Below, piece by piece: positions 5,502 through 28,706 of a DNA stretch of 64,000 bases. Origin of the DNA: an uncultured Flavobacteriales bacterium (GTDB taxonomy: Bacteria > Bacteroidota > Bacteroidia > Flavobacteriales > Schleiferiaceae); NCBI GenBank assembly GCA_913055685.1, contig CAJXKC010000002.1, positions 620,001-684,000 of the forward strand, written 5' to 3'. The notes beneath the pieces were generated by a model that made no database searches, was not told where the DNA came from, and saw only the letters and a program-made list of their open reading frames with translations. Position 1 is the first letter of the stretch. Every line of letters starts with the position of its first letter. Made by a program: the position numbers and the translations under genes.

Positions 5502-6752
5502 CTACTCTTTCACTTGCATCACCAAGACATACTCCATGCCAACTGGTTTACCATGGATTTCGGCCGGCTGCAATTGAGGAAAGTTTTCAAAGGTCTTGGT
5601 GGCTGCAAAATCTACTTCCGGATCAATACCACGCACTACCGTCTTTTTAATAAGACGACCGCTGCCATCGAAAATTAGCTTAAGGTAAATCCGACCAATG
5701 ATGCCCGATCCCTTTAATTTGACGGGATAAACAAAATTTGATTCCGCGTAGCGGTTTAAGGCTCTTTCGAAACAGTACTTATTTTCATCATCACTCGGTG
5801 CCGACTCACAACCATCCATCACCGGAGCGCGGTCTACTAATGGAAATTCATAGACTTCATTGCTGGTTGAGCTAGGATAATTGGCCTCCGGACTAGGGCT
5901 TCTGGGATTAGAAGCTTCCGGACTCGCTAAAGATGTGTCCTGGGCTTTTTCGCCATTACTAAAAATAATATCCTTCAACTTTTCAGCGGCCTTTTCCAAG
6001 TCCCCAACCTCGCCTAAATCGGGTAATCCAGGAAATGTGCCTCCTCCCGATTCCGGTTTACTTTCTGCTTCCGGAACCTCGATCTCAATTTCTTCTTCCT
6101 CCTCTCCTACTGGGATCTCAATATCCTTAGGCGGCGCAGGCGGTGCTGGTGCTGCACCCCCCATTTGCGGTAATTCTGGTATTAAAATGAGCTTGGAATT
6201 AAAGAGCTGGTACATTACACTAGCACCCAATGCTGGTACATGAGCATAATCTACTTTAAAGGCTTTAAACGCTACCAAATCACGGTAGCTCTGAAGAGCT
6301 AGAGCCATTTCACGAATCGGCTCCAGCGAAGCCATTAAGGCATTAGGATCGTAATTCACAATCGCCATTCCCTCGCTTATATATAGTTGCCCGGTTAAAG
6401 GAGTGGAAGAATCTACCGAATCGGATAACATGATATCCCCTTCCGGATTCTTTAAGAAATAGAGGAAATCCTTTTGCAACATCGAAACCGGCATAGGTTC
6501 CATCCGCGCTAGGCATTGGCCATTCGGCATCAATACTAAAGAATATAGGTTTCGACGGGCTATTTTATCGATGCTAAAGCTCCCCTGCTGTTGGGCTTGT
6601 AGCTTACTGGCTTCCATAACCCATTGGGCAAGTTCGGGCGAATTTGGATTATCAATAATCTTCTTCACCGGGCTTTCCCCAAAGGATTGCGCGCTTAACT
6701 GAGTAAAACCCACCAATAGCAATGCGCTGTAAATCGCCAGTAATCGTTTCAT
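5502..6752 (-). CDS. Secreted protein with C-terminal TonB-C domain
   Basis: A 416-residue protein with an N-terminal signal peptide (MKRLLAIYSALLLVGFTQLSA), a mixed domain to about residue 190, a proline- and glutamate-rich linker (about 195-265, PAPPAPPKD then EEEEEIEIEVPE), and a C-terminal domain resembling the TonB C-terminal fold (about 325-416, IGRIYLKLIFDGSGRLIKK, GKPVGMEYVLVMQ). Real TonB proteins keep an N-terminal anchor for ExbBD; here a cleavable signal is predicted, so the domain probably binds peptidoglycan or another envelope partner instead of moving energy. It is the last gene of the eleven-gene run: its ATG directly abuts the stop codon of the LEA lipoprotein gene. Confidence 0.75.
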   Translation of the reverse strand: MKRLLAIYSALLLVGFTQLSAQSFGESPVKKIIDNPNSPELAQWVMEASKLQAQQQGSFSIDKIARRNLYSLVLMPNGQCLARMEPMPVSMLQKDFLYFLKNPEGDIMLSDSVDSSTPLTGQLYISEGMAIVNYDPNALMASLEPIREMALALQSYRDLVAFKAFKVDYAHVPALGASVMYQLFNSKLILIPELPQMGGAAPAPPAPPKDIEIPVGEEEEEIEIEVPEAESKPESGGGTFPGLPDLGEVGDLEKAAEKLKDIIFSNGEKAQDTSLASPEASNPRSPSPEANYPSSTSNEVYEFPLVDRAPVMDGCESAPSDDENKYCFERALNRYAESNFVYPVKLKGSGIIGRIYLKLIFDGSGRLIKKTVVRGIDPEVDFAATKTFENFPQLQPAEIHGKPVGMEYVLVMQVKE

Positions 6753-7661
6753 TTAGAGTAAGTCTTTAAGGCTTAGCTTCACTTGCTTGCGGAAAGCTAG
6801 CGGAATGTCGAAGGTGTGACCATTAATTTCTAAGGTCATTTTACCCTTGATAAAAACCTCTTGATCCAATTGCTTTGAGGCAAGGATATCCGCATTACCC
6901 ATTAAGCTAAAGGTATTCACGTCAATATCAATCGGCACCATTAAGGTGTCATAAGGTTCGAATTTAAGGGTGTCACTTAATACCCATTCGGCTACGGTCG
7001 ACTTCTTTTCGGATAACTTTAAGCCCAACTCCATATTGTGAATAGCAAAACTCACTCCATTATCATTAACCAATTTCGCATCGGTATGAATAATTAGGTT
7101 GGAGAAACTCGATCCATCGCCCAAGCTGAAGTTGGTAAAGGTTTCCCCTTGTGACTCTTGGGAGAACTTATCTTCCAAGAAGTTCTGCATTTGATCGTAG
7201 TAGTTAAACTCCACTTCTTGATCTAAAGAGGAGGTCATAGGAATACCATAAACCTTGTAATAGGCTCGTCCGTCTACTTCCCAAATGAGGGTGTCGGATA
7301 CCATTATATTTCCCTGCTCTTCTTCTAAAAAGTTAAGGTCGATATCGGCTTCAACCGGAATCTCCACCTGATTACGCGGAGAGATCTCAAACTTTTTCTC
7401 CATCGCAAAGGAAGCCAGTTTTTTGTCTTCGTAATTAATGTCGAATTCCGATTCGCCCAGATGAATCTTTAATATCGAGGGATTGTTAATGTGGAATAAC
7501 ATCGACAAACGCAATTTGTCGTCCTGTATCCCCACAATCTTTAAATCTGAGACATCCTCCAGCTCTGGCTTTTGGGTACAACCCGAAATTCCAAATAAAG
7601 CGATGATTAGCGCTACCGTACCTAGGGTACTATACGCTATCTTTTTTCTTGAGAAAGACAT
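6753..7661 (-). CDS. LEA14-type (LEA type 2) lipoprotein
   Basis: A 302-residue lipoprotein. After a basic N-terminus and a hydrophobic stretch comes a lipobox (FGISGC, Cys28). The rest looks like two tandem LEA type 2 beta-sandwiches. The first has the family's N-N-P-S pattern (LFHINNPSILKIHLGES) and the second repeats the theme (VSFAIHNMELGLKLSEK). These domains are known in envelope lipoproteins and in stress proteins, and their ligand is unknown. The start codon lies inside the FHA-ABC gene, with a 32-base overlap, so the two are probably translationally coupled. That supports a role next to the transporter in the envelope. Confidence 0.75.
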   Translation of the reverse strand: MSFSRKKIAYSTLGTVALIIALFGISGCTQKPELEDVSDLKIVGIQDDKLRLSMLFHINNPSILKIHLGESEFDINYEDKKLASFAMEKKFEISPRNQVEIPVEADIDLNFLEEEQGNIMVSDTLIWEVDGRAYYKVYGIPMTSSLDQEVEFNYYDQMQNFLEDKFSQESQGETFTNFSLGDGSSFSNLIIHTDAKLVNDNGVSFAIHNMELGLKLSEKKSTVAEWVLSDTLKFEPYDTLMVPIDIDVNTFSLMGNADILASKQLDQEVFIKGKMTLEINGHTFDIPLAFRKQVKLSLKDLL

Positions 7662-10122
7662 AAATAAGTAAATAAAAGATTACGTTTAAAAACATCATGG
7701 CCCCAATATTGGCCTGGAGGGAATTCATAAAATCACCAATGAGTTCGCCTTTGTCGACTAATTCCTCATTGTAAAAATCGAGTAAAGATAATGCGCTGCG
7801 TGTGGCTACTTCCGTTTCATTAGGATCCATCATGGTCGTAATCATGGTAGTTCCATTTTCCATAGTATTGGTATCCGTAACCATGGTGGGAATATAGGCG
7901 ATCACACTTTCTAAATCCTGCGGGACTTCGCTTAAATCGCCATCGTAGACCGATCCATCTTGCACACGGGCAAGACCTTCAGTACCCCAGCGACCAAAGG
8001 TTAACCAAGACAAAACTTCCATACCAGCATTGTCTATCTTAGTAATTACCCCGGCCAACATAATTTGTGGCATAAGAGCAATGGGAACTACGGTCATTAC
8101 CTTTTCCGTATTATCGAAAATGGCAGATAGCATTAATCCCAATAAGGTAGAGGAAATCGCTAGGAAGGTCATAAAGCCAAAGGCCCCAATAAAGTTCTGC
8201 TGGAAGACCTCTTCAAATCCATCCACCGGAAATAAGCTAAAGCGGAAGTAAATAATCGCTTCGAATACTAGCAGCTGAATCATCGATATCAGCGATAAGA
8301 CTAAAATCTTACTGAGTACATATGCATTAATCCAGAGATTAAACATTCGCTCCCGCTTGTAAATTGATTGCTCACTTACAATTTCCTTGGCTGCATTACT
8401 CACCCCAAACCAGATGGAGGCAATGGCCATCAAGAACATGGCCCCTAATTGGAACTCCTTGAAGATTACGGAGATCAATGTCCCGATAATCACCGGCTGG
8501 GCCAATAGCAAGAGTAAATTACCCTTATCGTTGAACTTTATCTGGAAATAGCGTCGGCTAAGCCATGACAGTTGATGAAAGAAGGGCTCTTTTTTAGCCT
8601 TCGTAAACTGATTCTGCCCTTGCTTAAAATTATCATCGCCTCCCACATTACTGTAGCGCTTGGCGTAGAAATCGTTAGCTACCTGCTTATTACTAAGCAA
8701 ACCATACACTTCAACAATACTTTCCTTGTTGAAGTGACTCATAATCTCATCACTCTTACCGTAGAAAACGTGTACCCCACCCGATCCTAAGAAGACCACA
8801 TCGTCTACATAGTTTAAGTCCTCTGGTTTGTGGGTTACCATAATTATGGTTGTTCCCCGCGCTTTTAGGTTGTTGAGCTTCGTTAGGAATTCATGAATCG
8901 ACTCTGGGTCAAGTGGAGAAGTAGGCTCATCTAAGAATAAAATGGTCGGATCTGTAAGTAATTCAACCGCAATACTCAAGCGCTTACGTTCTCCTCCCGA
9001 TAAGGAAGAAACCGTTTTATAATAGATAGCTTTGGTTTTATCCTCGTCGAAGAGACTTAGCAATACCTGCATGATTTTCTCCTGCAGCATTTGCTTCGGT
9101 GTTTCCTTAGGCATCCGCAGCTTAGCACAGAAGAACATAGTTTGCTCTACTGTAAGCTCACGGTGAATAATATCATCTTGGGGGACGTATCCAATCTTTT
9201 TCTTCAGTAAAGGGAAATGCTTTACTAAGTCTAGACCATGAATCTTAACCGATCCACTGGTAGCAGGGTTATCGGCATTAAGAACCTTTAATAGCGTCGA
9301 TTTACCACAACCTGAAGGTCCCATCACGGCAACGAACTTCCCGTATGGTATATTTAAGCTTAAGCGCTTTAAACCCACGTAGCCATTAGGATATTTCTTT
9401 TCTATACCATCGGCTTTAATCGCTACTTCTTGGCGTAAATCGGAATAACCCTGACTCAGGGAAAAGGCATGTAAACAGATAAATATTTGGTCGTTTGGGC
9501 CAATTGGCGTTTTTCCAAAAACCCTTTTACTATTTACAAATACGCCATTGCGACTATTGAGGTCAACTACGTACCACTGACCATTCTCTAAAACAAACTG
9601 GGCGTGATTCCGACTTACAGTAAGGTCACTCGGGTCGATTTGAAAATCATTACCAGCACCACGACCCACTCGTATAGGTCGGCCTTGAGAAACCATAGAA
9701 AGGAACAATCCTGTTTGGGCACTATGCTCAAATTCGATCGAGCTGTTTCCAGCCCCTTGAGGAACCGGATTAGACCCGGTAACTGGAGCTGCAGCAGGCT
9801 GTGCCACTGGCTCTAGCATAAAGCTCACTTCAAAATCAACCGATCCCGCACTAAGGCTGTCTCCTGCTTTCATTTGATAGGCCTCAGCTGCATTTAGTCG
9901 AGCGCCATTTATGAAAACTCCATTGGTACTATTGGTATCTATTACCTGTAAATTAGGACCATCGAGTAGCATTTGCATATGCGAACGCGACATCGATCCG
10001 GTGGGGTCTTGAACTTCGAAACTAGCTCCTCCTCCACTGCGGCCCACTGAAATTTGCTGGCCCTCGGCAAAGCTGAATTCTTGTCCGGTTGCCCTTACCC
10101 TAAGTTGAATACGATTTGCCAA
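7630..10122 (-). CDS. FHA-FHA-ABC ATPase-ABC2 permease fusion (Rv1747-like half transporter)
   Basis: An 830-residue ABCG-like half transporter controlled by phosphopeptide-binding domains. FHA domain 1 (about 20-95) has the GR pair at 27-28 and SRSH at 45-48; FHA domain 2 (about 145-215) has GR at 153-154 and SRNH at 170-173, both followed by NSTNG or NSRNG, so both look able to bind phosphothreonine. The nucleotide-binding domain has Walker A GPSGCGKST (268-276), the Q-loop YVPQDD, the signature LSGGERKR, Walker B ILFLDEPTSPLD and an H-loop VTHK. An ABC2-type membrane domain with about six segments follows (about 530-830). The same domain order is known in mycobacterial Rv1747, which is regulated by the kinase PknF. 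Here a kinase and phosphatase lie in the divergent operon. The substrate is unknown. Five bases separate it from the M48 gene upstream. Confidence 0.88.
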   Translation of the reverse strand: MANRIQLRVRATGQEFSFAEGQQISVGRSGGGASFEVQDPTGSMSRSHMQMLLDGPNLQVIDTNSTNGVFINGARLNAAEAYQMKAGDSLSAGSVDFEVSFMLEPVAQPAAAPVTGSNPVPQGAGNSSIEFEHSAQTGLFLSMVSQGRPIRVGRGAGNDFQIDPSDLTVSRNHAQFVLENGQWYVVDLNSRNGVFVNSKRVFGKTPIGPNDQIFICLHAFSLSQGYSDLRQEVAIKADGIEKKYPNGYVGLKRLSLNIPYGKFVAVMGPSGCGKSTLLKVLNADNPATSGSVKIHGLDLVKHFPLLKKKIGYVPQDDIIHRELTVEQTMFFCAKLRMPKETPKQMLQEKIMQVLLSLFDEDKTKAIYYKTVSSLSGGERKRLSIAVELLTDPTILFLDEPTSPLDPESIHEFLTKLNNLKARGTTIIMVTHKPEDLNYVDDVVFLGSGGVHVFYGKSDEIMSHFNKESIVEVYGLLSNKQVANDFYAKRYSNVGGDDNFKQGQNQFTKAKKEPFFHQLSWLSRRYFQIKFNDKGNLLLLLAQPVIIGTLISVIFKEFQLGAMFLMAIASIWFGVSNAAKEIVSEQSIYKRERMFNLWINAYVLSKILVLSLISMIQLLVFEAIIYFRFSLFPVDGFEEVFQQNFIGAFGFMTFLAISSTLLGLMLSAIFDNTEKVMTVVPIALMPQIMLAGVITKIDNAGMEVLSWLTFGRWGTEGLARVQDGSVYDGDLSEVPQDLESVIAYIPTMVTDTNTMENGTTMITTMMDPNETEVATRSALSLLDFYNEELVDKGELIGDFMNSLQANIGAMMFLNVIFYLLIYVFLKKKDSV

Positions 10123-10127
10123 GCTGT

Positions 10128-10967
10128 TTAGGGATTTTGGATGTAATAGTTAATGCAGCTTACACGGTCTTTATGGTAAGGATGCGAGCGAGAGAATTTT
10201 TCCCATTCATCAGGATTCGCTTGCTCATATTGCATCATGCGCTTGAAGAAGTCTGCAAACTTCAAAGGATTAAAACCAGCTGCTTTGGCCATGTAAAAGG
10301 CATTGCGATCGGCTTCGTATTCATCAACCTGACCAAAGGGTAAATAGGCCTTATTGGTCATTTTGATAAGCTCATTCTCATAATCCTTCATGTTATAACT
10401 GGTACTTAGCTCCTTCATCACTAATACACGCTTAACCTTACGGGATACGTGCTCCATGTCGATATGGGTAATTTCATGCGCAATAATAAAGGCTAACTCG
10501 TCTACCGACTTAATGAATTTTAACAGTCCGGTAGTGAGGTAAATAAAACCACCATTGGTCGCAAAAGCGTTAGGTACATTGTCTTCTACAATGGTTAAGC
10601 TGTAGCGCACACCTTTGCGCTTCACGTAAGGAGCGATAATAGTGTCCACTAGCATCACACTAAGCTGGTTTTCCAACAGTGGGTTAGCAATAAATTTCAT
10701 TTCTGAACGCAGGTGTTCGCGTGCTGCTTTACCTATTTCGTACTCTTGCTCGATGGTTAAACTAACCGCAGCGTCTAAAATGGCATTCTCACCCTTGCGA
10801 ACTGCCGCTGCAAAACCGTCTAAGCCGCTACCACAATTATCAAAGATTTCGTAATCCTTCATGGCATCTTCATAGGTCTTCTGAATATCCTCAAAAGGAT
10901 TGTCTACTTGGGCACTAAGGCCAAGGCTTAATACCAAGCCTGCAAAGGTGTAAGCTAGTTTCTTCAT
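10128..10967 (-). CDS. Secreted M48-family zinc metalloprotease
   Basis: A 279-residue periplasmic or secreted peptidase of family M48 (the Oma1/HtpX/BepA group, without membrane helices). The signal peptide is MKKLAYTFAGLVLSLGLSAQ. The zinc site is HEITH at 164-168, and the third ligand lies in the downstream DEYEADRNAF helix. All catalytic residues are present. An ATG at 10994 would add nine residues and overlap the permease stop, but the start at 10967 places the signal peptide properly. Family members in the Gram-negative periplasm act in outer-membrane protein quality control. Its place between two ABC transporters suggests it processes or clears an envelope component of this system (inference). 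Confidence 0.82.
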   Translation of the reverse strand: MKKLAYTFAGLVLSLGLSAQVDNPFEDIQKTYEDAMKDYEIFDNCGSGLDGFAAAVRKGENAILDAAVSLTIEQEYEIGKAAREHLRSEMKFIANPLLENQLSVMLVDTIIAPYVKRKGVRYSLTIVEDNVPNAFATNGGFIYLTTGLLKFIKSVDELAFIIAHEITHIDMEHVSRKVKRVLVMKELSTSYNMKDYENELIKMTNKAYLPFGQVDEYEADRNAFYMAKAAGFNPLKFADFFKRMMQYEQANPDEWEKFSRSHPYHKDRVSCINYYIQNP

Positions 10968-10983
10968 TGTCTTGTTTGATTGA

Positions 10984-12516
10984 TTAACGTCCATAAATTA
11001 AATCACCTGGGGTGGTTCCTTTCAATTTCCTGTAAACCAATACCCAGATGATGAGTACCGGTAAAATCATGAAACTAAAAATATACAAAAACTCAAGTTT
11101 AAGGGAGAATAAAGTTTCATTAGGGTCTCCTAAGTTTAAACCTGGGGTAATAAGAAGATTGTTTATAGTATCACCGAGGAAAAAGGCTAAAAGGAAGCCC
11201 GTAAAGAATACCCCGGTAACAATTATTATGGCCACTCCAGAATATACGAGAGTGATGGTGTAATTGGATAAACCAAATGCCTTCAAAGTCCCTAAACTAG
11301 CCTTATTTCGATCAATATGTTCTACAATGGTTTTTGAAATTATGTAGATGATAATGGTAATCGTAAAGAGGGTAAGAATTATCGCGAGGAAATCTGATAT
11401 TTTCTTGAAAACGCTAAAGTTCTTGGCCGATTCCACATCGTTCAGGTTCACCGTAAGGTCATACTTAACTTGCAAGTAGTTAGCCATACGTGGAACGGAG
11501 TCTAATTCATTAAACTCCAGCACGAAATAATCGCTAGTATTAATGCGCAACTCTCCCCGGTTTACCCGGTCGTATGCCAGATAGGGAAAGAAATCGGCTC
11601 CTTCTGCCTCTTTTAAACACTGATCTAATTTGGCTAATACCGGTCCTTTAGCCGAGGCATTAAAAAAGTCTATTTCTAATTTATAGCCTTTGGTGTATAC
11701 TCCTTTGTCGTCCTCTAATTCAAACTCTTGGTCGCCCAGGCAGTTTTCGAGGGTAGAGCGTAATTCCGATTCCGATTTTGCGCTACGAATAAAAGCGGTA
11801 ATGTTCTTTTCATAGGCGCTAATCTTTGGGTCGAAAGGTGAAAACTCGTAACGGTTGGTTATCGAGTAGAAAGCCTTTTCGGTAAAGAATGCCCCCATCT
11901 TATCGGGTAACTTATCTGCTATGCCGGCAATTAGTACCGGTACCACTACCGGTTCTTCATTACGGTAATAAGGCACATGGTTGAGATATAGCGGAGGATT
12001 TTCTAAATCGTAACCAAGCTTCACCAAGAGGTCTTTACTCACAACTGCCGACCACTCAGCTTCCTCCATGCGAATTAACTTTTCATTGGTAAGTAATAAT
12101 TCGGCACTCTTTTCTCTAAATAGGAAGCGGTACAAATGTGTTTCGGGGTCGATAGGGCGAATGCGAGTACGAATTACCTTTCCATCATAAGACTGGAAAT
12201 TAATGCGTCCGGTAGGTACAAAGTGGGTTTCCTTTATACCAAAATCGGTCAATGTACTCTCCTTGGTAAACTCGTCTCGCAGCTTAGCCTGATAATTAGG
12301 TTTGCCTTCGATAGAACCTGGTAAGTTAACTGAGAGGAACTTTATGAAAGGACTATCCATCCGGTCCTTCAGGAATAATGCGGTTCCCTCACTAAAGCCA
12401 ATCGACCATAAAGACAAGAACATAATGCCGATTACCCCTATTATCATACCTACTTTGGCCAAGAAAGACCTAAGCTCAGGCACGAAAAACTGCTGGAAAA
12501 ATGACTTAAAATGCAT
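10984..12516 (-). CDS. FtsX/LolE-type ABC transporter permease
   Basis: A 510-residue inner-membrane protein with one N-terminal helix (about 20-40, MIIGVIGIMFLSLWSIGF), a large periplasmic domain (about 50-370) and three C-terminal helices (about 375-500). This is the type VII ABC (MacB/LolCE/FtsX) topology. The cytosolic loop after the second helix (RNKASLGTLKAFGLSNYTI) matches the family's usual K-A-x-G element. Two bases separate it from the ATPase gene upstream, with which it forms a pair. Such pairs do mechanical work across the periplasm rather than true transport: lipoprotein release, or signalling as in TagST of the T6SS threonine phosphorylation pathway. No MacA-like adaptor is nearby. 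Confidence 0.8.
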   Translation of the reverse strand: MHFKSFFQQFFVPELRSFLAKVGMIIGVIGIMFLSLWSIGFSEGTALFLKDRMDSPFIKFLSVNLPGSIEGKPNYQAKLRDEFTKESTLTDFGIKETHFVPTGRINFQSYDGKVIRTRIRPIDPETHLYRFLFREKSAELLLTNEKLIRMEEAEWSAVVSKDLLVKLGYDLENPPLYLNHVPYYRNEEPVVVPVLIAGIADKLPDKMGAFFTEKAFYSITNRYEFSPFDPKISAYEKNITAFIRSAKSESELRSTLENCLGDQEFELEDDKGVYTKGYKLEIDFFNASAKGPVLAKLDQCLKEAEGADFFPYLAYDRVNRGELRINTSDYFVLEFNELDSVPRMANYLQVKYDLTVNLNDVESAKNFSVFKKISDFLAIILTLFTITIIIYIISKTIVEHIDRNKASLGTLKAFGLSNYTITLVYSGVAIIIVTGVFFTGFLLAFFLGDTINNLLITPGLNLGDPNETLFSLKLEFLYIFSFMILPVLIIWVLVYRKLKGTTPGDLIYGR

Positions 12517-12518: not shown

Positions 12519-13400
12519 TTAATTCGGACTGTCTTTAATAGCGTTCTTCAATAATGCGATGATCTCTTCATCGCTATATTCAGTTCCATTCCCTTTGTTA
12601 CGCCAATGGCCAGGCTGGCTTTTTTCATAAACCGACTCTTCGGTTACCAAGCCATATTTAAAATTACCTTCTTCATCATTTATCTCCTGCTTGGCAATGA
12701 GTACTACCGAATCGCCATAGGTGACCGATAATTCGATATCGTGACTCACAATTACCGAGGTACGGTTTTCTTTTTGTACGATATCAGTAAGGATCTTCAT
12801 CAGCTTATGCGCATTATGATGATCGAGGTTACCAGTAGGTTCATCAGCCAATAATACATCGTAATCCGATCCTAAGGCGCGGGCAAAAGCCAAACGCTGT
12901 CTTTGTCCGCCCGACATTTCGGCCACCTTCTTACCTTTTATGATTTCCATCACGAATTCCTTTGGATAGAGTTTAGCCAAAAGCTGGCGCGCTCTAAGCT
13001 TCGCATCATCACTCTTCTCCCCTTTTAAAATGGGAGTAATACTGGCATTCTGATAAGCGGTAAGATTACCAAACAAATTGGTACTTTGAAATATGAAGCT
13101 AAGGTGTTCTTTGCGGAATTTAGCTAGCACCGACTCCTTTTGTTTCCAGAGTTTATCGAGCTCAACTTCAGTATTAGTATCGTGGTCGTGGTATTTTATA
13201 AATCCATTGGCTCGAACCTTAATGGTATTATTCATTACCCCTAAGGTTTCCAGGATAGTTGACTTACCTACTCCCGACGAACCCACGATAAAATAAGTCT
13301 TCCCTCTTTCGATATCCAATGTATCGAGTTGCAGCACCGGCCTTAAATTGCTCTTGTACTGACAAGCGATATTCTTTATCGAAAATAAGTTATTAGCCAT
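12519..13400 (-). CDS. LolD/MacB-type ABC transporter ATPase
   Basis: A 293-residue cytosolic ABC ATPase, the partner of the FtsX-type permease encoded just downstream. Walker A is GSSGVGKST, the Q-loop region is FIFQSTNLFGNLT, the signature is MSGGQRQR, Walker B is DVLLADEPTGNLD and the switch histidine is in VSHD. It carries about 60 extra residues at the C-terminus compared with LolD (after residue 230, ending in an acidic EEIIALLKN helix). The start overlaps the VWA gene end by eight bases. A second, ordinary LolD is encoded at 61430, so this copy is probably dedicated to the local system. Confidence 0.85.
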   Translation of the reverse strand: MANNLFSIKNIACQYKSNLRPVLQLDTLDIERGKTYFIVGSSGVGKSTILETLGVMNNTIKVRANGFIKYHDHDTNTEVELDKLWKQKESVLAKFRKEHLSFIFQSTNLFGNLTAYQNASITPILKGEKSDDAKLRARQLLAKLYPKEFVMEIIKGKKVAEMSGGQRQRLAFARALGSDYDVLLADEPTGNLDHHNAHKLMKILTDIVQKENRTSVIVSHDIELSVTYGDSVVLIAKQEINDEEGNFKYGLVTEESVYEKSQPGHWRNKGNGTEYSDEEIIALLKNAIKDSPN

Positions 13401-19569: not shown

Positions 19570-22500
19570 TGTACTAAAATTTTAAAGGTGGCTACTTGAT
19601 GCTGGGTCTGCACCTTTAGGATCACGTATCCGGGCACATGCTGCCTTAAACTGACCTGCTTTTGGTCGGGGTCCCAATGCAGCGGTATGACCTTACCCAT
19701 TAAGTCAAAGGCCTCGATGCGTTCCACTTCTTCACGCTCATCCATCGCTAGCTTAAAGCGACCGGAGTTCGGATTAGGATAAATGGCAATGGTTTCAAAA
19801 GCTAGCTCCTCTTGCTGACCAATAGTATTGGACTTGCTTGGATTAAGCCAGAAGTTAGCCGGGTAGTAACTGTAAGAACGGCACTTAGAGCCTCTCTCAT
19901 CGGCCGCAGCCATAACATAAACATATTGGGTGGTGTCGATACTACCATAATCGAAGAAGCGAGCAGTGTCCCAAGTACTTACATATTCCCAAGCCAAACT
20001 ATTTTTATTAATGCGTCCCCAACGGAAATAGGTAGCGGTGACGTCTGGGTCGGAGTCTACAATTATAGTGTTCACGGCCGCTAATTGATCATCATCTGGA
20101 CTAGTCCCCGCCGCAATAGCATTAGGGTCAACAAACAATTCACGATCGCAATTTTTACCGTTGCTGCTGTAATCTATCGCTAAACCGAGAGGATTGGCAG
20201 AGTTTACATTCCAGGAAACAATTGTGCGTGCGCCTAATACACTGTTTAAGGCAGAACCCGAAGAGAATTGATAATTGTAATTGGTGTATTCTTCTTGGTT
20301 TAGTTTTAAGAGTACATTCTTCTGGCCTTCACATAAAAGTAGCGCACCGGTTGAATCATCCAAATCGGGATCTAAAGGTTGGAAGCTTAAATCAACGTAG
20401 TCGTCTATAAACCTTCCCCAATAAGGAGGTTCATTTACAAATATGGTAATAGCTTCGGTGTATACCGGATTACAATTAGCCTCAATTCGCTGTCGAACAT
20501 TGTAAATTCCTGGACTTAATAATACCTCACTACTATCTAGGGTATAGCTATTGGCCTCGGCAGCACTGAGTGGGAAATCTTGATAAGCACTATTGGCTTC
20601 ATGATCTAATTTATACTCTAGGAAATAACTGTAGGTACCAGGATCAGCCCCAGACGCTCCCGTGGTGCGGATAATATTGATGGGATCACCAAAACAAACC
20701 CGCATGCTATCATTCTGACTACCATTATAGCTATTGGTTAAATCTCCTGGCAAGAACTCAGGGTATACTAAAACATCAAAGCTATTGGAGATGGAGGAGT
20801 CGCCACAATCATCATATACCGTGCAACGGAAATAAGCACTACTCTGCAGGGTGTCGATGTCTGTACTGCTTAAAGTAGGACTTGTACTGATTGGGAAAGT
20901 CTGTACAATAGTATTAAAGTTGGCATCCGATGCCCGTTCCCATTTAAAGCTATTGCTACCGGTGAGGTCTCCGCCACTAAAATCTACTTCCAAATCATCG
21001 GCCAAAGCCTGACCAAAACATAAATCGGTGTTCGTTGCTGTGCCATTGGCAAAGCGACTATCCGCAGCAATTAGTTCATCCCAAACATTAACAATAAAGG
21101 TCTGGGAAGTCGCATTGTCGCCGCAATTATCACTCACTACGCAACGGATATAGGTGGTGTCGGTAAATACTCCAATATCGGTGGCACTTAGAATGGTAGT
21201 ATTGGAACGAACTAAATTAGAATCTATGCTTGCAAAGTTTGGGGTACTGGAAAACTCCCAAGTGAAAGTATAACTATCATTGGTATCTCCTCCGCTGTAA
21301 GCTAATTCTAAATCGAAGGCCAAGGGATCTAAGTGACATACCGTGGCATTAGTGCTAGATCCACCTACATTGGTAATTGCTGTTGCACTTAATTGATCCC
21401 AAGTAATAATGTGGTAAACAGAGGCGGTAGTTTGCACATCCGAACAAAATACATCGGTAACCTCCCCTTGAATGTAGATATCTGCACCGCCCGTTAAATT
21501 ACCGAGTGTACTTAAATTAATGCTAGCATTAGTTTCCCCGCTTATAGCCGTAGCACCAGTCATGGACGGATTATTGGCTTGCAACCAGCGGTAGCTATAA
21601 TTACTAGGTTGACGACCTGCCGATGGCGTCATACTAAGACTGCCAGCAGCCAAATCGTTATAACATACTTCTTCACTACCCGTTCCAAAACTTGCACTTA
21701 CCTGAAGATTCTCATGGGTAACTAGGTGATACACTTCACTGCTAAGTGCCGTTTGACTACAAGTATTATCGGTCACTTCGGCCTGTAAGTAAATATCGGC
21801 TCCTCCATTTTGCAGCCCCAAGGAGTTTAAATTTAAGCTTGTGCTTGACTGACCCGTAATGACAGTTTTACCGGTCATGGCACTGTTATTGGCTTGGTAC
21901 CAAACATAGGTATGGTTTGCCGGTAAATCACCACCACTCACCGAAGCGCTTACAGTTCCACTGGGAGTGGTTCCAAAACATACGTCAACCGTTTGGGTTG
22001 GGATGCTAATTTGTAATTGATCGCGGGTAATTACATGATAGGTGGCCGAAGAAACTGCAGTTTGTGCGCAACTGTTATCAAAAACGCGAGCTTGCACATA
22101 GACATCGGCCCCACCCAACTGCTGACCCAAGGCGTTTAAGCTTAAGGTACTGGTATTCTGACCCGAAATCACCGTAGCGCCCGTCATCGCAGGGTTATCA
22201 GCTTCCAGCCAGCTGTATACATAATTGCCCGCACTAGAACCACCCCCACCAGTTGAACTGATAGTTCCTGTTGGGGTGCCTAAATAACAAACATCTTGGC
22301 TCTGGCCTGACGGGATGCTTACGGTAAGCTGATCGAAGGTTACCAAATGATACAGATTAGCAGTCGACTTAATGGTTCCACAATTTACATCGGTAACTCT
22401 GCCTTGAATATACACATCATTACCACCCAGTAAATTTCCTAAGCTACTCAGGTCGAAGGTAGCAAGGTTTGCTCCGCTAATCTGGGTTGCGTTGGTCATA

Positions 22501-24548
22501 CTAGCATTACTAGCTTGCCACCAGCTGTAACTGTAATTGGCTGGCAATTGCCCCCCTCCTGGAGTCATGGTGATAGTGCCACTAGCGCTGGTATTATAGC
22601 ATACATCTTGTGTTCCTGCCGGCATACTTACCGTAAGGTCTTCATGGGTGATAAGCTGATAGGTTTCACTCGAACTCACCGATTCTCCACAAACCGATTC
22701 GTTTACGGTTACCTGAATAAAAATATCATTACCCCCGTTCTGCTGACCAAGGGCACTAAGGTTTAAGCTCGAACCATTTTGACCGGCTATAGCGGTCTTA
22801 CCGGTCATGGCACTATTATTAGCCTGAAACCAAGTATAGGTAAAGGACGGGCTAACGGCTCCACCTTGTATTGATGCGTTAACGGTACCGCTCGGTGTTG
22901 AACCAAAACACACGTCAATAGTATTGTTTGGTATACTAACCTGCAGCTGCTCATTAACAATAATGTGATACACATTTGAGGAAACTGCCGTTTGACTGCA
23001 GCTATTGTCGAATACCCTCGCTTGCACATAAATATCAGGACCACCCTGCTGAACTCCTAAATTGGATAAATCAAATGAACTGCTAGTTTGTCCCGAAATA
23101 GCGGTAGCATTTGTCATTGAGGGATTATCGGCCTCTAACCAACTGTAAACATAGTTTGCAGCGCTAGATCCACCACCTGCACTAAGAATAATAATCCCGG
23201 TTGGCGTGCCATTATAACAAACTTCCTGAGAAGGTGCGCTCGGAAGGCTTACCGTTAACTGATCGCGTGTGATTAGCTGGTAAAGGTTGGTGGTTGTTTT
23301 TACAGTACCGCAGCTTAAATCAGTAACCTGACCTTGAATATACACATCATTACCTCCTAATTGAGGACCTAAGGTGCTTAAATTTAGGCTAGCTGAATTT
23401 GCCCCAGAAATCACTGTAGCGCCAGTCATAGAGGCATTATTGGCGCTTAGCCAAGTGTAGCTGTAATTGGCCGGCTGCTGTCCGCCACCGGCGGTCATTG
23501 TAATATTGCCGGTTGCGCTTTCATTGTAACATACTTGCTGACTGCCAGCAGGCATACTCACCGTCAAGTCTTCGTGGGTGATTAATTGGTAGGTCTGACT
23601 AGATAAGGCTGTCTCGGTACAGTTACTTTCTGAAACCTCTACCTGTAAATAGATATCCGAACCACCGTTCAACTGACCTAAAGCCGTTAAATCAAGGTTT
23701 GCCGTAGTCTGGCCGGCGATGGCCGTTTTACCTGTCATCGCACTATTACTAGCCTGATACCAAGTATAAGTGTAATTCGGGCTATTGGAAGAACCCCCAC
23801 TTATGCTTGCACTAACCGTACCGGTAGGTGTAGAGCCGAAACAAACATTTAAGGTTGCAGTAGGAATGCTCACCTGCAATTGATCGTCGGTAATAATCTG
23901 ATATGTATTGGTAGAAACCACCACATTTCCACAATCAACATCGGTTAATTCTGCTTGAACGAAAACATCTGCCCCACCTTGTAAAACCCCTATTGAATTT
24001 AGACTTAAAGTAGAGATATTCTGCCCGGCTATTACCGAGGCTCCGGTCATTGAGGCATTAGTCGCCTGTAACCAACGATAAGTGAAGTTCCCCGATCCAT
24101 TACTAGGTGTAGCTGTGAGAGTACCAGTAGGCGTTCCATTATAACAAACCGTTTGGCTCTGCCCCGCCGGAATACTAACGCTGGCATTGCTGTATGCGCT
24201 TAAAGTAAAGGCCAATGAGTCTTTGACGTTCCCCGAAGCGATTTCATAGAAAGCAATGCTGTATTGCTGACTTGATCCTGGGCTGGAAGGAACCAATAAG
24301 TTAAATGAAGTATTGGGACTTTTTATTGTAGTAAGTAAGCTACTACCCTGATAGATCCGCAATGAATCAGATTTATTCGCACCATTGGCGGTAAAGCCAA
24401 CGGTAAATGTGAGATTCGTTGAAGCACATCTATTAAGAGTATTCCCATCACTAACCGCATTACCTCCCTGAGAAACAGTATTTGCCTGAAGATTAATACC
24501 CAAAAAGAAAATGGCGACAAAGCCGAGGAGCCTGAAGGAGTAGCGCAT
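19566..24548 (-). CDS. Giant T9SS-secreted repeat protein with nine near-identical Ig-like repeats
   Basis: A 1660-residue secreted protein. I chose the ATG at 24548 (MRYSFRLLGFVAIFFLGINL, a signal peptide); an upstream TTG-type extension to 24650 would put 34 odd residues before it. After an introductory domain come nine repeats of about 103 residues and two or more divergent copies, each with a Cys near the start (V-C-[YF]-N/G) and one near the end (D-x-x-C). A C-terminal T9SS type A sorting domain follows, with YPNPNSGRFKLAM and the final strand TFKILVQ. The repeats resemble Ig/SprB-like extracellular folds. It is the first gene of the minus-strand run and probably its main exported surface product, with the downstream genes serving its control or display. 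Confidence 0.85.
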   Translation of the reverse strand: MRYSFRLLGFVAIFFLGINLQANTVSQGGNAVSDGNTLNRCASTNLTFTVGFTANGANKSDSLRIYQGSSLLTTIKSPNTSFNLLVPSSPGSSQQYSIAFYEIASGNVKDSLAFTLSAYSNASVSIPAGQSQTVCYNGTPTGTLTATPSNGSGNFTYRWLQATNASMTGASVIAGQNISTLSLNSIGVLQGGADVFVQAELTDVDCGNVVVSTNTYQIITDDQLQVSIPTATLNVCFGSTPTGTVSASISGGSSNSPNYTYTWYQASNSAMTGKTAIAGQTTANLDLTALGQLNGGSDIYLQVEVSESNCTETALSSQTYQLITHEDLTVSMPAGSQQVCYNESATGNITMTAGGGQQPANYSYTWLSANNASMTGATVISGANSASLNLSTLGPQLGGNDVYIQGQVTDLSCGTVKTTTNLYQLITRDQLTVSLPSAPSQEVCYNGTPTGIIILSAGGGSSAANYVYSWLEADNPSMTNATAISGQTSSSFDLSNLGVQQGGPDIYVQARVFDNSCSQTAVSSNVYHIIVNEQLQVSIPNNTIDVCFGSTPSGTVNASIQGGAVSPSFTYTWFQANNSAMTGKTAIAGQNGSSLNLSALGQQNGGNDIFIQVTVNESVCGESVSSSETYQLITHEDLTVSMPAGTQDVCYNTSASGTITMTPGGGQLPANYSYSWWQASNASMTNATQISGANLATFDLSSLGNLLGGNDVYIQGRVTDVNCGTIKSTANLYHLVTFDQLTVSIPSGQSQDVCYLGTPTGTISSTGGGGSSAGNYVYSWLEADNPAMTGATVISGQNTSTLSLNALGQQLGGADVYVQARVFDNSCAQTAVSSATYHVITRDQLQISIPTQTVDVCFGTTPSGTVSASVSGGDLPANHTYVWYQANNSAMTGKTVITGQSSTSLNLNSLGLQNGGADIYLQAEVTDNTCSQTALSSEVYHLVTHENLQVSASFGTGSEEVCYNDLAAGSLSMTPSAGRQPSNYSYRWLQANNPSMTGATAISGETNASINLSTLGNLTGGADIYIQGEVTDVFCSDVQTTASVYHIITWDQLSATAITNVGGSSTNATVCHLDPLAFDLELAYSGGDTNDSYTFTWEFSSTPNFASIDSNLVRSNTTILSATDIGVFTDTTYIRCVVSDNCGDNATSQTFIVNVWDELIAADSRFANGTATNTDLCFGQALADDLEVDFSGGDLTGSNSFKWERASDANFNTIVQTFPISTSPTLSSTDIDTLQSSAYFRCTVYDDCGDSSISNSFDVLVYPEFLPGDLTNSYNGSQNDSMRVCFGDPINIIRTTGASGADPGTYSYFLEYKLDHEANSAYQDFPLSAAEANSYTLDSSEVLLSPGIYNVRQRIEANCNPVYTEAITIFVNEPPYWGRFIDDYVDLSFQPLDPDLDDSTGALLLCEGQKNVLLKLNQEEYTNYNYQFSSGSALNSVLGARTIVSWNVNSANPLGLAIDYSSNGKNCDRELFVDPNAIAAGTSPDDDQLAAVNTIIVDSDPDVTATYFRWGRINKNSLAWEYVSTWDTARFFDYGSIDTTQYVYVMAAADERGSKCRSYSYYPANFWLNPSKSNTIGQQEELAFETIAIYPNPNSGRFKLAMDEREEVERIEAFDLMGKVIPLHWDPDQKQVSLRQHVPGYVILKVQTQHQVATFKILVQ
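21393..24185 (-). repeat. Nine-unit coding repeat with a three-unit higher-order period of 930 bases
   Basis: Repeat units begin (minus strand) at 24185, 23879, 23567, 23258, 22946, 22637, 22328, 22016 and 21707, each 306-315 bases. Units 2, 5 and 8 share the VCFG start and MTGKT; units 3, 6 and 9 share a VCYN start and an ANYSY/SNYSY strand; units 1, 4 and 7 share a [ST]VCYNGTPTG-like start, with a WLEADNP strand in 4 and 7. The distance between matching units is 927-933 bases, most often exactly 930, so the array was built by duplicating a three-unit block. Two more divergent copies follow at 21392 and 21074. Confidence 0.85.
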
Positions 24549-24707
24549 GAATGATTGGTTTTTTTGGTCATAACAATAATAAGAACTATTGCTAAAAAAT
24601 GGGGGCAATTGCCGTGAAAATGTCATAACTAACCGCTTATTCAGCACCAACTACCAGGCAAATCCTGAAATTTTAACGTATGTTCGCTAAGGAAAAATTG
24701 CTATTTA
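24549..24707. promoter_or_regulatory. Divergent promoter region between the giant repeat protein operon and the FHA-phosphatase-kinase operon
   Basis: This 159-base gap separates the two divergent units of the putative phospho-signalling system. It holds a perfect 10-base palindrome, GGCAATTGCC, at 24604-24613, and a TATGTTCG element at 24679-24686 that resembles the Bacteroidota TAnnTTTG box and lies 21 bases before the plus-strand ATG. I see no convincing -33 element, so the promoter call itself is weak. The shared region makes co-regulation of both operons plausible. Confidence 0.4.
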
Positions 24708-25709
24708 ATGGACCGACCAATCATTGCCTTAATCGCCGCATTGATGCTAAGTATTTCCGCCTTAGCTAAAAATGAATCCGTTAAGGAAGTCAAGGCGAAA
24801 AAATCCGAATACCTTAATACCGAGTTTAGTTTAAAGGGTATTATTCACGAACCAGATTCCAGCCTTAGTGAAGACAGTTACATTTTAGTGGATCGTTCCA
24901 ACGACAGTCTTGAGCTAAGAACAGAGGATGAATTGGAAATTGGGCAGGAATACCGCCTGGAAGGAAAGCTAAAGGAAAAGAACGAGGCTTTATTCTTTCA
25001 AGTTGAGGATCCAGAATGTTTAGATTGCGATGACGACGAGGAAGAGAGTTCCACAATGATTTTCATCCTTACCGCTTTAGTGGTTGTATTAGGGGTAGTA
25101 ATCGTGTTTATCATCAATAAACAGAAAACGAACAACCTCCCTCCTAGTAATCCCTTTCCTCAGAGTCCACCACAGGGTAATTTCAACCCCAATCAAGGAT
25201 TCTCCCAACCGAATATGGGTCAGCAAGTGCCACCTAGCAACCCTAATCCTAATGCCGGTAATGCTGGAACGGATAATTATGCGACCATTGCTTTTAATCC
25301 TAATCAATTACCAAAGCAACCCATTACGGAATCCAAGACGGTGGTAATGAGTCAGCCTAAACCGGAAGAAGACAATAAGATTCCTGGTAAATTCACTTTC
25401 AATATTGGCGGTGAAGCGCAAAGTATTGAGCTAAAGGGCTTCCCAACCGGATTAGGCTATATCGCTACCGTGGGTAGAGAAGCGGCCCAGGCCGGTAAAG
25501 AAGAAAGTCATTTACGCTTGAACGATCAAACCGTATCTAGGAAGCAGGCAGAATTTATATTCGAAAAAGGAGCTTTATATTTACGCAACTTAAGTAGCAC
25601 CAATCCTTCCCAACTAAATGGTAAGGTAATGGGCTCTGGTGGCTTGGATCAAGTTCAACCAGGCTCATCCATGAAATTCGGGGAAGTAATAGTAACCTAT
25701 CAAGTTTAA
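24708..25709 (+). CDS. Membrane protein with periplasmic OB-like domain and cytosolic FHA domain
   Basis: A 333-residue protein: signal peptide 1-20, a periplasmic domain 21-115 that looks like a small OB fold (SYILVDRSND, EYRLEGKLKEKN), an acidic stretch (CDDDEEESS), one transmembrane helix 117-137, a proline/asparagine-rich cytosolic linker (145-220) and a C-terminal FHA domain (about 225-333). FHA residues seen are GR at 256-257, SRK at 277-279 and SSTNP/LNG; the usual His of S-R-x-H is Gln280. The linker carries Thr193 (ATIAF) and Thr211 (KTVVM), candidate phosphosites with hydrophobic +3 residues. It is the first gene of the trio, five bases before the phosphatase, and probably recruits phosphorylated partners to the membrane. 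Confidence 0.8.
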   Translation: MDRPIIALIAALMLSISALAKNESVKEVKAKKSEYLNTEFSLKGIIHEPDSSLSEDSYILVDRSNDSLELRTEDELEIGQEYRLEGKLKEKNEALFFQVEDPECLDCDDDEEESSTMIFILTALVVVLGVVIVFIINKQKTNNLPPSNPFPQSPPQGNFNPNQGFSQPNMGQQVPPSNPNPNAGNAGTDNYATIAFNPNQLPKQPITESKTVVMSQPKPEEDNKIPGKFTFNIGGEAQSIELKGFPTGLGYIATVGREAAQAGKEESHLRLNDQTVSRKQAEFIFEKGALYLRNLSSTNPSQLNGKVMGSGGLDQVQPGSSMKFGEVIVTYQV

Positions 25710-25714
25710 GAAGC

Positions 25715-26581
25715 ATGGCTTGGGACTTAAACTACGCATCAGTTAGTCAAGTGGGACGCCGTCAAAGCAATCAGGATGCTTGCTTTGCAGAGCAACTCAC
25801 CTCAGATATTTATTTATTTGCCGTTGCCGACGGCATGGGTGGCGCCAATGGTGGCGAAACCGCTAGTGCCATGGTCATTGAAACCATGAAGGCGGTGGTA
25901 ATGGAGGAAATTGGGGATCTTTACGAAGACCCAAAGCACCTGCGAAATTGCCTAGAAAAAGTGGTGAGCACTTGCCAAACTAAATTGGCCGAAGCAGGAG
26001 AAGAAAATGAAAACCTCAGAGGCATGGGTACTACCCTAGTAGCTTTGCTTATAGTAGAGGACAATTTTTGCTACTGTAATATCGGCGACAGCCGGATATA
26101 CCAATACGATCAGCGCGGCCTGCGTCAGCTCACCACAGACCACAGCTTGGTTCAAGAAACCTTAAGTAAGGCGGATGGTGTTCCCGTGCCCGAAGATTTT
26201 TTACGTCGACATGATCACATTATTACCCGTGTTTTAAATGGTGGTGATGATTTGGCCGATTTAAGCGATGTAAAAAGTATTAGCGGCGAATTGAAGGAAA
26301 AGACCTCCTTCCTACTCTGTTCGGACGGACTCATTTTAGATAAAATTAACGAGCCTAGCTATATCAGCGATAGCTTAAAAAATGAGCAAGCTAGTCCGGT
26401 CGAAAAATGCAACTACCTCTCTAATTACGCCTATGATAAAGGCTCAAATGACAATATCACCCTGGTTATTGTCGACCTCAAGTCCACGGAAAAAAGTGGT
26501 GAAACCATTGAGATCTCTAGTAAAACTTCGGATGAAGTAACGGAACCTCTCGATAAAACCACGCAAATTAGATTGAATTAG
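25715..26581 (+). CDS. PP2C-family serine/threonine protein phosphatase
   Basis: A 288-residue cytosolic metal-dependent phosphatase (PPM/PP2C, Stp/PrpC/PppA type). All metal-binding motifs are seen: RRQSNQD (Asp21), VADGMGG (Asp39-Gly40), GMGTT, NIGDSRIYQY, TTDHSLV, LLCSDGL and GSNDNIT. The C-terminal tail (about 262-288) is rich in Thr and Ser and ends DKTTQIRLN; Thr282 has Ile at +3 and could be a phosphosite read by an FHA domain. It lies five bases after the FHA gene and four bases before the kinase, so it is the natural counter-enzyme to that kinase. Confidence 0.93.
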   Translation: MAWDLNYASVSQVGRRQSNQDACFAEQLTSDIYLFAVADGMGGANGGETASAMVIETMKAVVMEEIGDLYEDPKHLRNCLEKVVSTCQTKLAEAGEENENLRGMGTTLVALLIVEDNFCYCNIGDSRIYQYDQRGLRQLTTDHSLVQETLSKADGVPVPEDFLRRHDHIITRVLNGGDDLADLSDVKSISGELKEKTSFLLCSDGLILDKINEPSYISDSLKNEQASPVEKCNYLSNYAYDKGSNDNITLVIVDLKSTEKSGETIEISSKTSDEVTEPLDKTTQIRLN

Positions 26582-26585
26582 TACT

Positions 26586-28706
26586 ATGTCATTCACGGGT
26601 TTCGATAATCACATTAAAGAGGTATTAGCCGATCGCTATGAAGTATTAAATCTTCAAGGAAAGGGCGGTATGGCTAATGTATATCGGGCAATCCAAATTG
26701 GCCTCGACCGCGAGGTAGCCATTAAGGTAATTCACCCGAGTTTAGTTAATGATGAGGACACTATAAAGCGCTTTAAGCTGGAAGCGAAAAGTGCCGCAAA
26801 ACTCTCGCATCCCAATATTATAACGGTATACGATGTGGGTGAAGCGGGTGAAATCGTTTACATCTGTTTAGAGTTTTTAGATGGAACCGACCTGGCCCAT
26901 CTCATTCGCGAGCAGGGACGATTGAGAGTAGACCAGCTACTTACCATTATGGTCCCTATTGCCTCGGCTTTAGCAGAAATCCACGACCACTCTTTAATTC
27001 ACCGTGATATAAAGAGCTCCAATATCTTTATTACCAAACGGGGCAAGCCTATTCTTCTAGATTTTGGCATTGCTACCTTTAAGGAAAGTTCATCCGGTAC
27101 CACCTTACCGGGAACGGTTATTGGTACTCCCGAATACATGAGTCCGGAGCAAGCTAATGGCCGTTCAGTTGGACCAGAAAGTGATATCTATTCCTTAGGA
27201 ATTGTAATGTTCCAATGTCTTAGTGGTAATGTGCCTTTCGCGGGTGACTCCCCTATTTCTACATTGGTAAAAATTTCACAGGGGATAATGCCTGAGCTCG
27301 ATCAACAGAGTTTGGAAATCCCGCAATGGCTTTATGACATTGTAATGAAGTGTTTGGCTAAAGATCCGGAGAACCGCTTCCGCTCGGCCAATGATCTTCT
27401 CAATAGCCTAAAAGCCAAGAAAATTGTCGAAACGGCGATAAACCCTAAGGGTAAAACGGCCAATTATGATGCCGAGATATTAGAGTTAAACTCCAAACTC
27501 AATCATTCTATTAGTATCGATGAGCGCATTGAAGTATTGCAAGGCAGCGCCCAAACGATCCGCGAAATTTATCGCTTAGATGAGGAGATTGAATACCTCA
27601 CTAAGATTAAAAAATTTCAGGCCGACCTTAACAAGAAGTACCAAGATGCAAAGCTCACCATTGAAAAAAGCATTGACTTCTTAAAAACCCGCTCCTTTGA
27701 TGAAGTGATCCATCAGAGTCAAAATTTGGGTAATAATTACTCCAACATTGCTTTTTACAATCAATACAGCTCTATTTACAGCCTGGCCAACCGCCTAAAA
27801 GAAATTGAAGAGCTATTACCGAAACTGAAGTCATCCGAGAATTTTCAGAAAAGCTCTGAGAACTTTATCAAAGTACTTTTCCTTATCAGCAGCTCTATTG
27901 AGCAGATAAAGAACTTCGACTTCGTAGGTAAAGAGGATCAACAAGAAATCTTGCAAAATACCCTGCATTACAATGACCTTTTCCATGAGGCCATTATCGA
28001 GCATATCAAAAATGATAAGGTGGAGAACTCCGAGAAAAAACCTATCATTCACCTCTTGCTCGAAACGATAAAGATACAGGGGGAAGATCTCGCCCGTAAT
28101 AAGGAATTGAAGGACTTATTAATCGACTTAAACAATCAATACGTTTATAAGAATAATAAACTCTTCCGAATCGCTAAGCCTAGCGACAAAGAGGAACAAA
28201 TGGACTCCAAAGCTGTTGCAAAAGAGCCACTTAAACCCTTAAACTTCAATCAGGAGTTTAATGACATTATTAATGAGGAGTTCTTGAAACAGACCGCAGT
28301 AAAAGATTTTCTATCTACTCCGAATTCCGAAATTGCGGAACAGACTTTAAATCGTATCATATACCTCTTCTACTCACCTAAAGTGAAGAACAATGGCTAT
28401 CAAATTCTGATGAAATTGGGAAGGGAAATGATCGACCATCACAAGAAGCGTTATGGCAAATTCGAAAAATTCCAATTAGGAGAAGAGGTCTTAGGCTTTG
28501 ACGAAATCAACAAGGAGTTTGACCTCGATACCGCTGGGGCCGTCAAGAAATGGGATACCACCATCAAGGAGTATCTGCAAAAATTAAAGGGTCAGCGTGA
28601 CTTAATTTCCGATGAGCAGTTAAATACGGTTCTTAATCAGACCTCCACTAAATTACTCAATCAGTTCAAGAATTATTTCGCACATACGCTTCTAAAAGAG
28701 GTGTAG
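26586..28706 (+). CDS. Soluble Hanks-type serine/threonine protein kinase with long helical C-terminus
   Basis: A 706-residue kinase with a catalytic domain at about 18-280. Motifs are intact: glycine loop GKGGMANV (25-32), Lys47 in VAIK, catalytic HRDIKSSN (139-146, Asp141), DFG with Asp159, activation segment GTPEYMSPEQ and DIYSLG. No transmembrane helix or PASTA repeat follows, unlike PknB; instead about 420 residues of predicted helix and coiled coil fill the C-terminus. The kinase probably acts in the cytosol on the FHA proteins and the membrane linker protein. Signal input is unknown. It closes the FHA-phosphatase-kinase operon; no terminator with a T-run is seen in the 106 bases that follow. 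Confidence 0.93.
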   Translation: MSFTGFDNHIKEVLADRYEVLNLQGKGGMANVYRAIQIGLDREVAIKVIHPSLVNDEDTIKRFKLEAKSAAKLSHPNIITVYDVGEAGEIVYICLEFLDGTDLAHLIREQGRLRVDQLLTIMVPIASALAEIHDHSLIHRDIKSSNIFITKRGKPILLDFGIATFKESSSGTTLPGTVIGTPEYMSPEQANGRSVGPESDIYSLGIVMFQCLSGNVPFAGDSPISTLVKISQGIMPELDQQSLEIPQWLYDIVMKCLAKDPENRFRSANDLLNSLKAKKIVETAINPKGKTANYDAEILELNSKLNHSISIDERIEVLQGSAQTIREIYRLDEEIEYLTKIKKFQADLNKKYQDAKLTIEKSIDFLKTRSFDEVIHQSQNLGNNYSNIAFYNQYSSIYSLANRLKEIEELLPKLKSSENFQKSSENFIKVLFLISSSIEQIKNFDFVGKEDQQEILQNTLHYNDLFHEAIIEHIKNDKVENSEKKPIIHLLLETIKIQGEDLARNKELKDLLIDLNNQYVYKNNKLFRIAKPSDKEEQMDSKAVAKEPLKPLNFNQEFNDIINEEFLKQTAVKDFLSTPNSEIAEQTLNRIIYLFYSPKVKNNGYQILMKLGREMIDHHKKRYGKFEKFQLGEEVLGFDEINKEFDLDTAGAVKKWDTTIKEYLQKLKGQRDLISDEQLNTVLNQTSTKLLNQFKNYFAHTLLKEV

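Follow-up and report, generated by a model that had tools for sequence, protein, structure and literature searches.

Which envelope machine is encoded at positions 5,502 to 28,706 of a 64,000-nucleotide stretch of DNA from an uncultured Flavobacteriales bacterium of the Schleiferiaceae (GenBank assembly GCA_913055685.1, contig CAJXKC010000002.1, positions 620,001 to 684,000; hereafter the window)? An earlier note had read this place as one undescribed kinase/phosphatase/FHA-controlled envelope system of 14 genes. All 14 open reading frames (ORFs) are present and intact, the eleven-gene minus-strand run is compact (few-base gaps or overlaps between adjacent genes, the largest overlap being 32 bases), it stands back to back with an FHA-PP2C-kinase trio whose gaps are 4 to 5 bp, and Pfam confirmed most of the domain calls. 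However, the 14 genes are not one fixed system, as the older core consists of only seven genes, running from a giant protein of the type IX secretion system (T9SS) to an FtsX-type permease. We propose, with as much confidence as doubt, that the locus encodes a phospho-controlled, ATP-binding cassette (ABC)-energised trans-envelope complex, without a contractile tail, that handles a T9SS surface protein. The seven core genes are as follows.

19566 to 24650, minus strand: giant secreted protein with SprB/PKD-like repeats and a T9SS sorting tail (Pfam SprB, 8e-15)
17887 to 19569, minus strand: outer-membrane barrel-like protein (HHalign to same-place genes)
16406 to 17887, minus strand: cytosolic zinc ribbon, proline-rich linker, one transmembrane (TM) helix and a periplasmic region (profile comparison, AlphaFold2)
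15840 to 16409, minus strand: small secreted alpha/beta protein, weakly VWA-like (HHalign, AlphaFold2)
13393 to 15840, minus strand: TssR-like periplasmic VWA protein with an intact DxTxS metal-site motif (TssR Pfam profiles, motif, tree)
12519 to 13400, minus strand: LolD/MacB-type ABC ATPase (ABC_tran, 9e-24)
10984 to 12516, minus strand: FtsX-type permease with a large periplasmic domain (Pfam FtsX, 3.6e-7)

The fifth of these genes connects the locus to a known machine. The earlier note had called its product a secreted VWA protein; the VWA domain stands, and what was missed is membership of the TssR family, which ties the locus to the Bacteroidota type VI secretion system (T6SS). Pfam detected TssR_VWA (9e-15) and the TssR N-terminal barrel (4e-8) above cut-off and TssR_C (5e-5) just under it. 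The protein has no lipobox, and no sequence relatives of the TssR profile were found in the PDB. In the Bacteroidota T6SS(iii), TssR belongs to the TssNQOPR membrane complex (PMC10781749). A 2024 study found no homologues of this membrane complex outside T6SS loci and described its origin as hard to identify, with no independent locus encoding the gene set (PMC10781749).

Of the 88 genomes in the family, 7 carry a close TssR-like protein; one is the window's own, and the other six conserve the protein at about 32 to 81% identity. The window genome (G000; 2.96 Mb) belongs to the same genus as the metagenome-assembled genome (MAG) G410, and other family members are recorded as Cryomorphaceae and Owenweeksia. 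A named scan of the phylum gave 47 TssR loci, some from the same records as our numbered genomes, and ORF clustering split the TssR loci cleanly into canonical T6SS(iii) and LolD/FtsX-linked ones. TssR is followed by LolD and FtsX genes, either as two genes or as a fusion, in each of the 24 distinct loci with a continuing contig (after one intervening gene in L073), whereas this holds for 0 of 28 canonical T6SS loci. There, the neighbors are TssO/P, TssK/G/F or ClpV, and never LolD or FtsX. The TssR-LolD-FtsX loci were found in the window's family, in Portibacter and other Saprospiraceae, in G039 and in Bacteroidales-type MAGs (Bacteroidaceae, Alistipes, Rikenellaceae and Dysgonamonadaceae).

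Relatives of the seven-gene core are spread over three orders: they occur in Flavobacteriales and, with upstream genes that diverge more, in Bacteroidales and Saprospiraceae. In most of these genomes, no T6SS tail was detected. Profile comparison between the window and Bacteroidales revealed remote homology at matching positions for the barrel, the small protein and the zinc ribbon. The barrel-like protein, which has no Pfam match, scored 99.5% in HHalign against the same-place Bacteroidales gene (cluster c38) and matched weakly to cluster c97, itself with an OMP_b-brl_2 match. The small protein scored 92 to 95% against same-place clusters c39 and c63, and the zinc ribbon, also present in proteins encoded at this position or close to it in L068, L069, L072 and L082, scored 92 to 96% against its Bacteroidales counterpart over the first ~33 residues. 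The Portibacter genes upstream of TssR (c31, c40, c41) either differ or have diverged too far for a good match. Most loci with sufficient flanking sequence encode a large secreted protein upstream of the core; in the window's giant, the T9SS sorting tail (Por_Secre_tail, 1.2e-5) falls just below the Pfam cut-off.

To look for a contractile tail, we used PF17541 (TssC), PF17555 (TssN) and PF04717 (VgrG-type spike, which also marks extracellular contractile injection systems [eCIS]), disregarding PF05943 (VipB) as unsuited to Bacteroidota. The window genome gave no TssC, TssN or spike match, while T6SS-bearing controls were positive. The same three profiles found no match in the six family relatives, in G039 or, outside the family, in G482, G483, G484, G486, G487 and G489; G494, searched for the spike only, had no spike match. 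TssO, TssP and TssQ were not found. Judged from its sequence by the three defining features TssC, TssN and spike, the locus is not a T6SS.

Four T6SS-bearing relatives (L084, L071, L088 and L075) carry the TssR-ABC module, two of them on the T6SS contig. The Saprospiraceae genome G490 has, on one contig, a barrel, TssP, the small protein, TssR and a LolD-FtsX fusion, followed by TssN, TssK and TssC. In a second member of that family, G491 (contig G491:C8, L123 to L125), a kinase, a weak TssP match, TssR, LolD, FtsX, PP2C and an FHA protein share the contig with TssK, TssN, TssG, TssF, TssE, VgrG, TssC and ClpV. In the L071 and L075 genomes, the T6SS genes are on a different contig from the module. 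As a separate observation, the G491:C8 T6SS, with its own kinase, PP2C and FHA protein, is a candidate for a threonine phosphorylation pathway in a Bacteroidota T6SS.

Next, we compared residues at the aligned metal-ion-dependent adhesion site (MIDAS) position. The strict DxT/SxS motif was present in 14 of 16 TssRs from spike-free genomes vs 0 of 36 from T6SS- or spike-bearing genomes, a regrouping by spike domain that we chose with the residues already in view. Our first grouping gave 15/22 for T6SS-free and 0/32 for T6SS-linked TssRs (Fisher P = 2e-8, overstated in that the sequences are related). In these alignments, T6SS-free TssRs mostly retain a metal site that T6SS TssRs lack. In L067, a second TssR-like copy downstream of FtsX (14740 to 17124) has lost the strict motif. 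A tree of 54 TssRs placed the canonical T6SS(iii) sequences in one clade (100/100) adjoining L084/L071 (99/95), with L088 and L075 grouping with Saprospiraceae on the other side. A single clade of all T6SS-bearing TssRs was rejected (approximately unbiased test, P = 6e-9), and therefore the tie between the TssR-ABC module and the T6SS has changed repeatedly; because the tree has no root, the direction of change is not readable from it. It is possible, though on balance doubtful, that TssR-LolD-FtsX forms an independent class among phospho-regulated trans-envelope machines and is older than the Bacteroidota T6SS, that T6SS(iii) took TssR from that class with loss of the ABC pair and the VWA metal site, and that the T6SS-bearing L084, L071, L088 and L075 genomes carry intermediates.

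The genes that would control the core stand divergently from it.

24708 to 25709, plus strand: signal peptide/TM protein with a cytosolic FHA domain (FHA, 1.2e-9)
25715 to 26581, plus strand: PP2C phosphatase, the sole match in G000 (PP2C_2, 1e-19)
26586 to 28706, plus strand: Ser/Thr kinase, the sole G000 match at E<=1e-20 (Pkinase, 1e-51)

The phosphatase retains its DGMGG and DN motifs and the kinase its VAIK, HRD, DFG and APE-like motifs; in the FHA domain, SRKQ replaces SRxH. All three FHA domains, the single PP2C and the single kinase of the whole window genome (kinases are counted here and below at E<=1e-20) lie at the locus, which goes beyond chance. Among 23 core genomes, 10 have FHA, PP2C and kinase genes all within 25 kb of TssR, and in those ten the locus accounts for 26 of the 28 FHA domains, 10 of the 11 PP2C and 13 of the 15 kinases of the whole genome. 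Under random placement, and leaving shared ancestry out of account, the PP2C linkage would have a probability of about 10^-16.6. The ten genomes are of different orders, and their modules vary in orientation and position. The trio and the envelope genes thus do recur together, and the loss of synteny or scattered distribution that the earlier note had named as refuting its proposal was not seen; linkage of the core to kinase, PP2C and FHA genes holds for these ten genomes, and 11 of the 23 lack FHA/PP2C at the locus. The trios of G410 and G406 are on short contigs that end within the FHA gene, which fits the window's arrangement but does not prove linkage. G397, G398 and G064, all with the core, gave no FHA, PP2C or kinase match anywhere in the genome. 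Because these three match none of the families, the core must be able to work without the module. We therefore take the machine to be the core, with the kinase module as optional control and not as the core's only output. Portibacter lacus has an FHA-PP2C-kinase cluster (G158:C5, L167) at a distance from its TssR locus.

Gene content, conservation, linkage and the absence of detected tail genes are observed; from these we infer that the products form a complex, that the ABC pair drives work on the surface protein, that phosphorylation takes place and exerts control and that the genes are co-transcribed. In the mechanism we propose, the LolD/FtsX pair would be a mechanotransmission engine of the MacB/LolCDE type, whose strokes would reach the barrel by way of the zinc-ribbon/TM protein and the TssR-like VWA protein and would move, anchor or release the T9SS-exported surface protein. 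Kinase and PP2C would toggle this engine from the cytosol by phosphorylating and dephosphorylating threonines read by FHA proteins, the core being the machine and the kinase module its optional control. In the window's genus, the same switch may also control a local exporter with two FHA domains, described below. The Walker A/B and signature motifs of both ABC ATPases of the locus are intact. AlphaFold2 predicted for the zinc-ribbon protein a ribbon, a disordered linker, a TM helix, two Ig-like domains and an NTF2-like domain; most periplasmic blocks had a predicted local distance difference test score (pLDDT) of 75 to 94, but the predicted template modeling score (pTM) was 0.33 and fold matches were weak. 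The small protein was modeled as an alpha/beta fold (pLDDT 75, pTM 0.70) with weak VWA matches, none at E<=0.001.

Several points weigh against this proposal. TssR is the only component detectably homologous to the T6SS membrane complex, TssN being absent and TssO/P/Q not found. The zinc-ribbon protein resembles TssP in plan only, having no profile match to it when tried as a TssP homologue, and the two models are modest. Since the kinase module is missing from about half of the core loci, phosphorylation is no universal part of how the core works. Lastly, the correlation of TssR, LolD and FtsX distances (r = 0.87 to 0.94), which we count in favor of the proposal, can also arise from shared descent.

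An outside-in sensor is rather unlikely as the alternative. In that account, the core would sense contact or envelope damage, as TagQRST of Pseudomonas aeruginosa does, its output would be kinase activation, and the phosphorylated FHA proteins would act elsewhere, for example on the FHA-FHA-ABC exporter. The parts list, an ABC pair, kinase, PP2C and FHA, equals that of the threonine phosphorylation pathway (PMC6657622, PMC6082577), and a TssR-type VWA domain with an intact metal-site motif could bind a ligand. However, three genomes (G397, G398 and G064) keep the core without any FHA, PP2C or kinase match, and the window's kinase has no TM or periplasmic sensor domain in its sequence, unlike PpkA.

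We consider it unlikely, too, that the locus is an accessory for T9SS cargo or outer-membrane biogenesis in which the ABC pair extracts or matures the giant or a lipoprotein, the TssR-like and M48 proteins are quality-control partners and kinase control is incidental. The giant with its T9SS tail leads the operon, a LEA lipoprotein and an M48 protease are nearby, and FHA domains adjoin proteases in other versions of the locus (FHA-FHA-trypsin in Bacteroidales, FHA-M48 in L072). Those same fusions, together with the genome-wide concentration of phospho-genes at the locus, argue against incidental control, and the LolD match is far below the equivalog cut-off.

A T6SS remnant, or the membrane part of a T6SS or contractile injection system whose tail was missed, is very improbable. 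TssR family membership, the G490 and G491 contigs with TssR-LolD-FtsX beside T6SS genes and an eCIS-like locus 49 to 77 kb away in Portibacter favor it, yet TssC, TssN and spike searches of the window genome, which is 99.9% complete, gave no match, the genes are intact with TssR kept in six relatives, and the metal-site motif missing from T6SS TssRs is retained. That the trio is an unrelated neighbor, as the 11 core genomes without FHA/PP2C might suggest, is scarcely credible given linkage in ten genomes of different orders with varied orientation and position. The Portibacter eCIS-like locus (L161 to L164; G064:C65, G158:C11), on the same contig as TssR-LolD-FtsX and ~49 and 77 kb from it, includes a VgrG-like spike, a gp25-like gene and several ~550-amino-acid genes.

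How does the proposed complex compare with known systems? Like T6SS(iii) TssNQOPR (PMC10781749), the locus encodes a TssR family protein with N-terminal barrel, VWA and C-terminal domains and, upstream of it, a single-pass protein with predicted Ig-like periplasmic domains, as TssP is placed; the likeness to TssP, described as a TM segment with two PKD domains and a further domain, is weak and one of plan only. Unlike T6SS(iii), the locus has an added ABC pair and a TssR-like protein with an intact metal-site motif and no lipobox, there is no TssN, sheath or spike match, and TssO/P/Q were not found. The PpkA/PppA/Fha and TagQRST pathway (PMC6657622, PMC6082577) likewise has kinase, PP2C, FHA and ABC transporter genes encoded with an envelope machine, a likeness of parts list; here, there is no T6SS to regulate, the kinase has no periplasmic domain and no TagQ or TagR equivalents were identified. 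The locus would work like this pathway coupled to a membrane complex. According to the literature, TagQRST is confined to Pseudomonas (PMC6082577). Rv1747-PknF of Mycobacterium tuberculosis (PMC3908365, PMC5549992) also pairs an FHA-FHA-ABC exporter with a Ser/Thr kinase. That FHA-FHA-ABC-TM architecture recurs here, with the kinase gene about 16 kb off in the same locus, but it matches just one local extra gene. With LolCDE, MacB and FtsEX, the locus shares an ATPase and an FtsX-type permease with a periplasmic domain, and it differs in its constant TssR neighbor and in scores far from the NCBIfam equivalog cut-offs (LolD_lipo_ex 2e-37, 129 bits vs 308). No sequence relatives of the permease were found in the PDB. 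A defense-system reading was rejected, since only generic kinase/ATPase/phosphatase matches and no system-specific proteins of known antiphage systems were seen. By these sequence comparisons, the locus is neither LolCDE, on score, nor a named defense system. The earlier note knew of no named system with this composition, and the open-licence literature we searched contained no description of the gene set; the locus would be a phospho-controlled envelope machine from known parts in a combination not found described there.

The claim that homologues of the membrane complex occur only in T6SS loci (PMC10781749) needs revision, for TssR. With TssR in T6SS-free, ABC-linked loci and T6SS loci bearing the same TssR-ABC module, the origin of the membrane complex becomes testable. 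Furthermore, ten Bacteroidota genomes with nearly all their FHA, PP2C and kinase genes at one envelope locus indicate where Ser/Thr phospho-signaling may act.

The remaining four genes of the minus-strand run are local additions.

10128 to 10994, minus strand: secreted M48 metalloprotease (Peptidase_M48, 2e-23)
7630 to 10122, minus strand: FHA-FHA-ABC exporter of Rv1747-like architecture (Pfam: two FHA, ABC_tran, ABC2_membrane)
6753 to 7661, minus strand: LEA_2 lipoprotein-like (LEA_2, 1.9e-11)
5502 to 6752, minus strand: TonB-C protein (TonB_C, 1.7e-4, below cut-off)

The M48, FHA-FHA-ABC and LEA genes are common only to the window, G410 and G427; the TonB-C gene has a detected match in G410 only. 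Both FHA domains of the exporter retain GR..SR.H..N. An FHA-FHA-trypsin protein lies beside the core in L070 (2670 to 4151), a Bacteroidales version, and an FHA-M48 fusion beside it in L072 (16801 to 17832). These are predicted phospho-readers joined to proteases, and the protease-FHA theme recurs in other forms.

The giant's annotated TTG start is probably wrong, 34 codons too early, as the predicted signal peptide starts at Met35, about 24548; with that start, ~160 bp are left between the divergent genes. A scan of this region for Bacteroidota-type promoters gave no match, and no viral relatives were found. Elsewhere, the window encodes another large T9SS protein (45304 to 50076), which has Sortilin-Vps10 and PKD domains, and two similar PAS_3-PAS histidine kinases (28813 to 30288 and 40585 to 42084).

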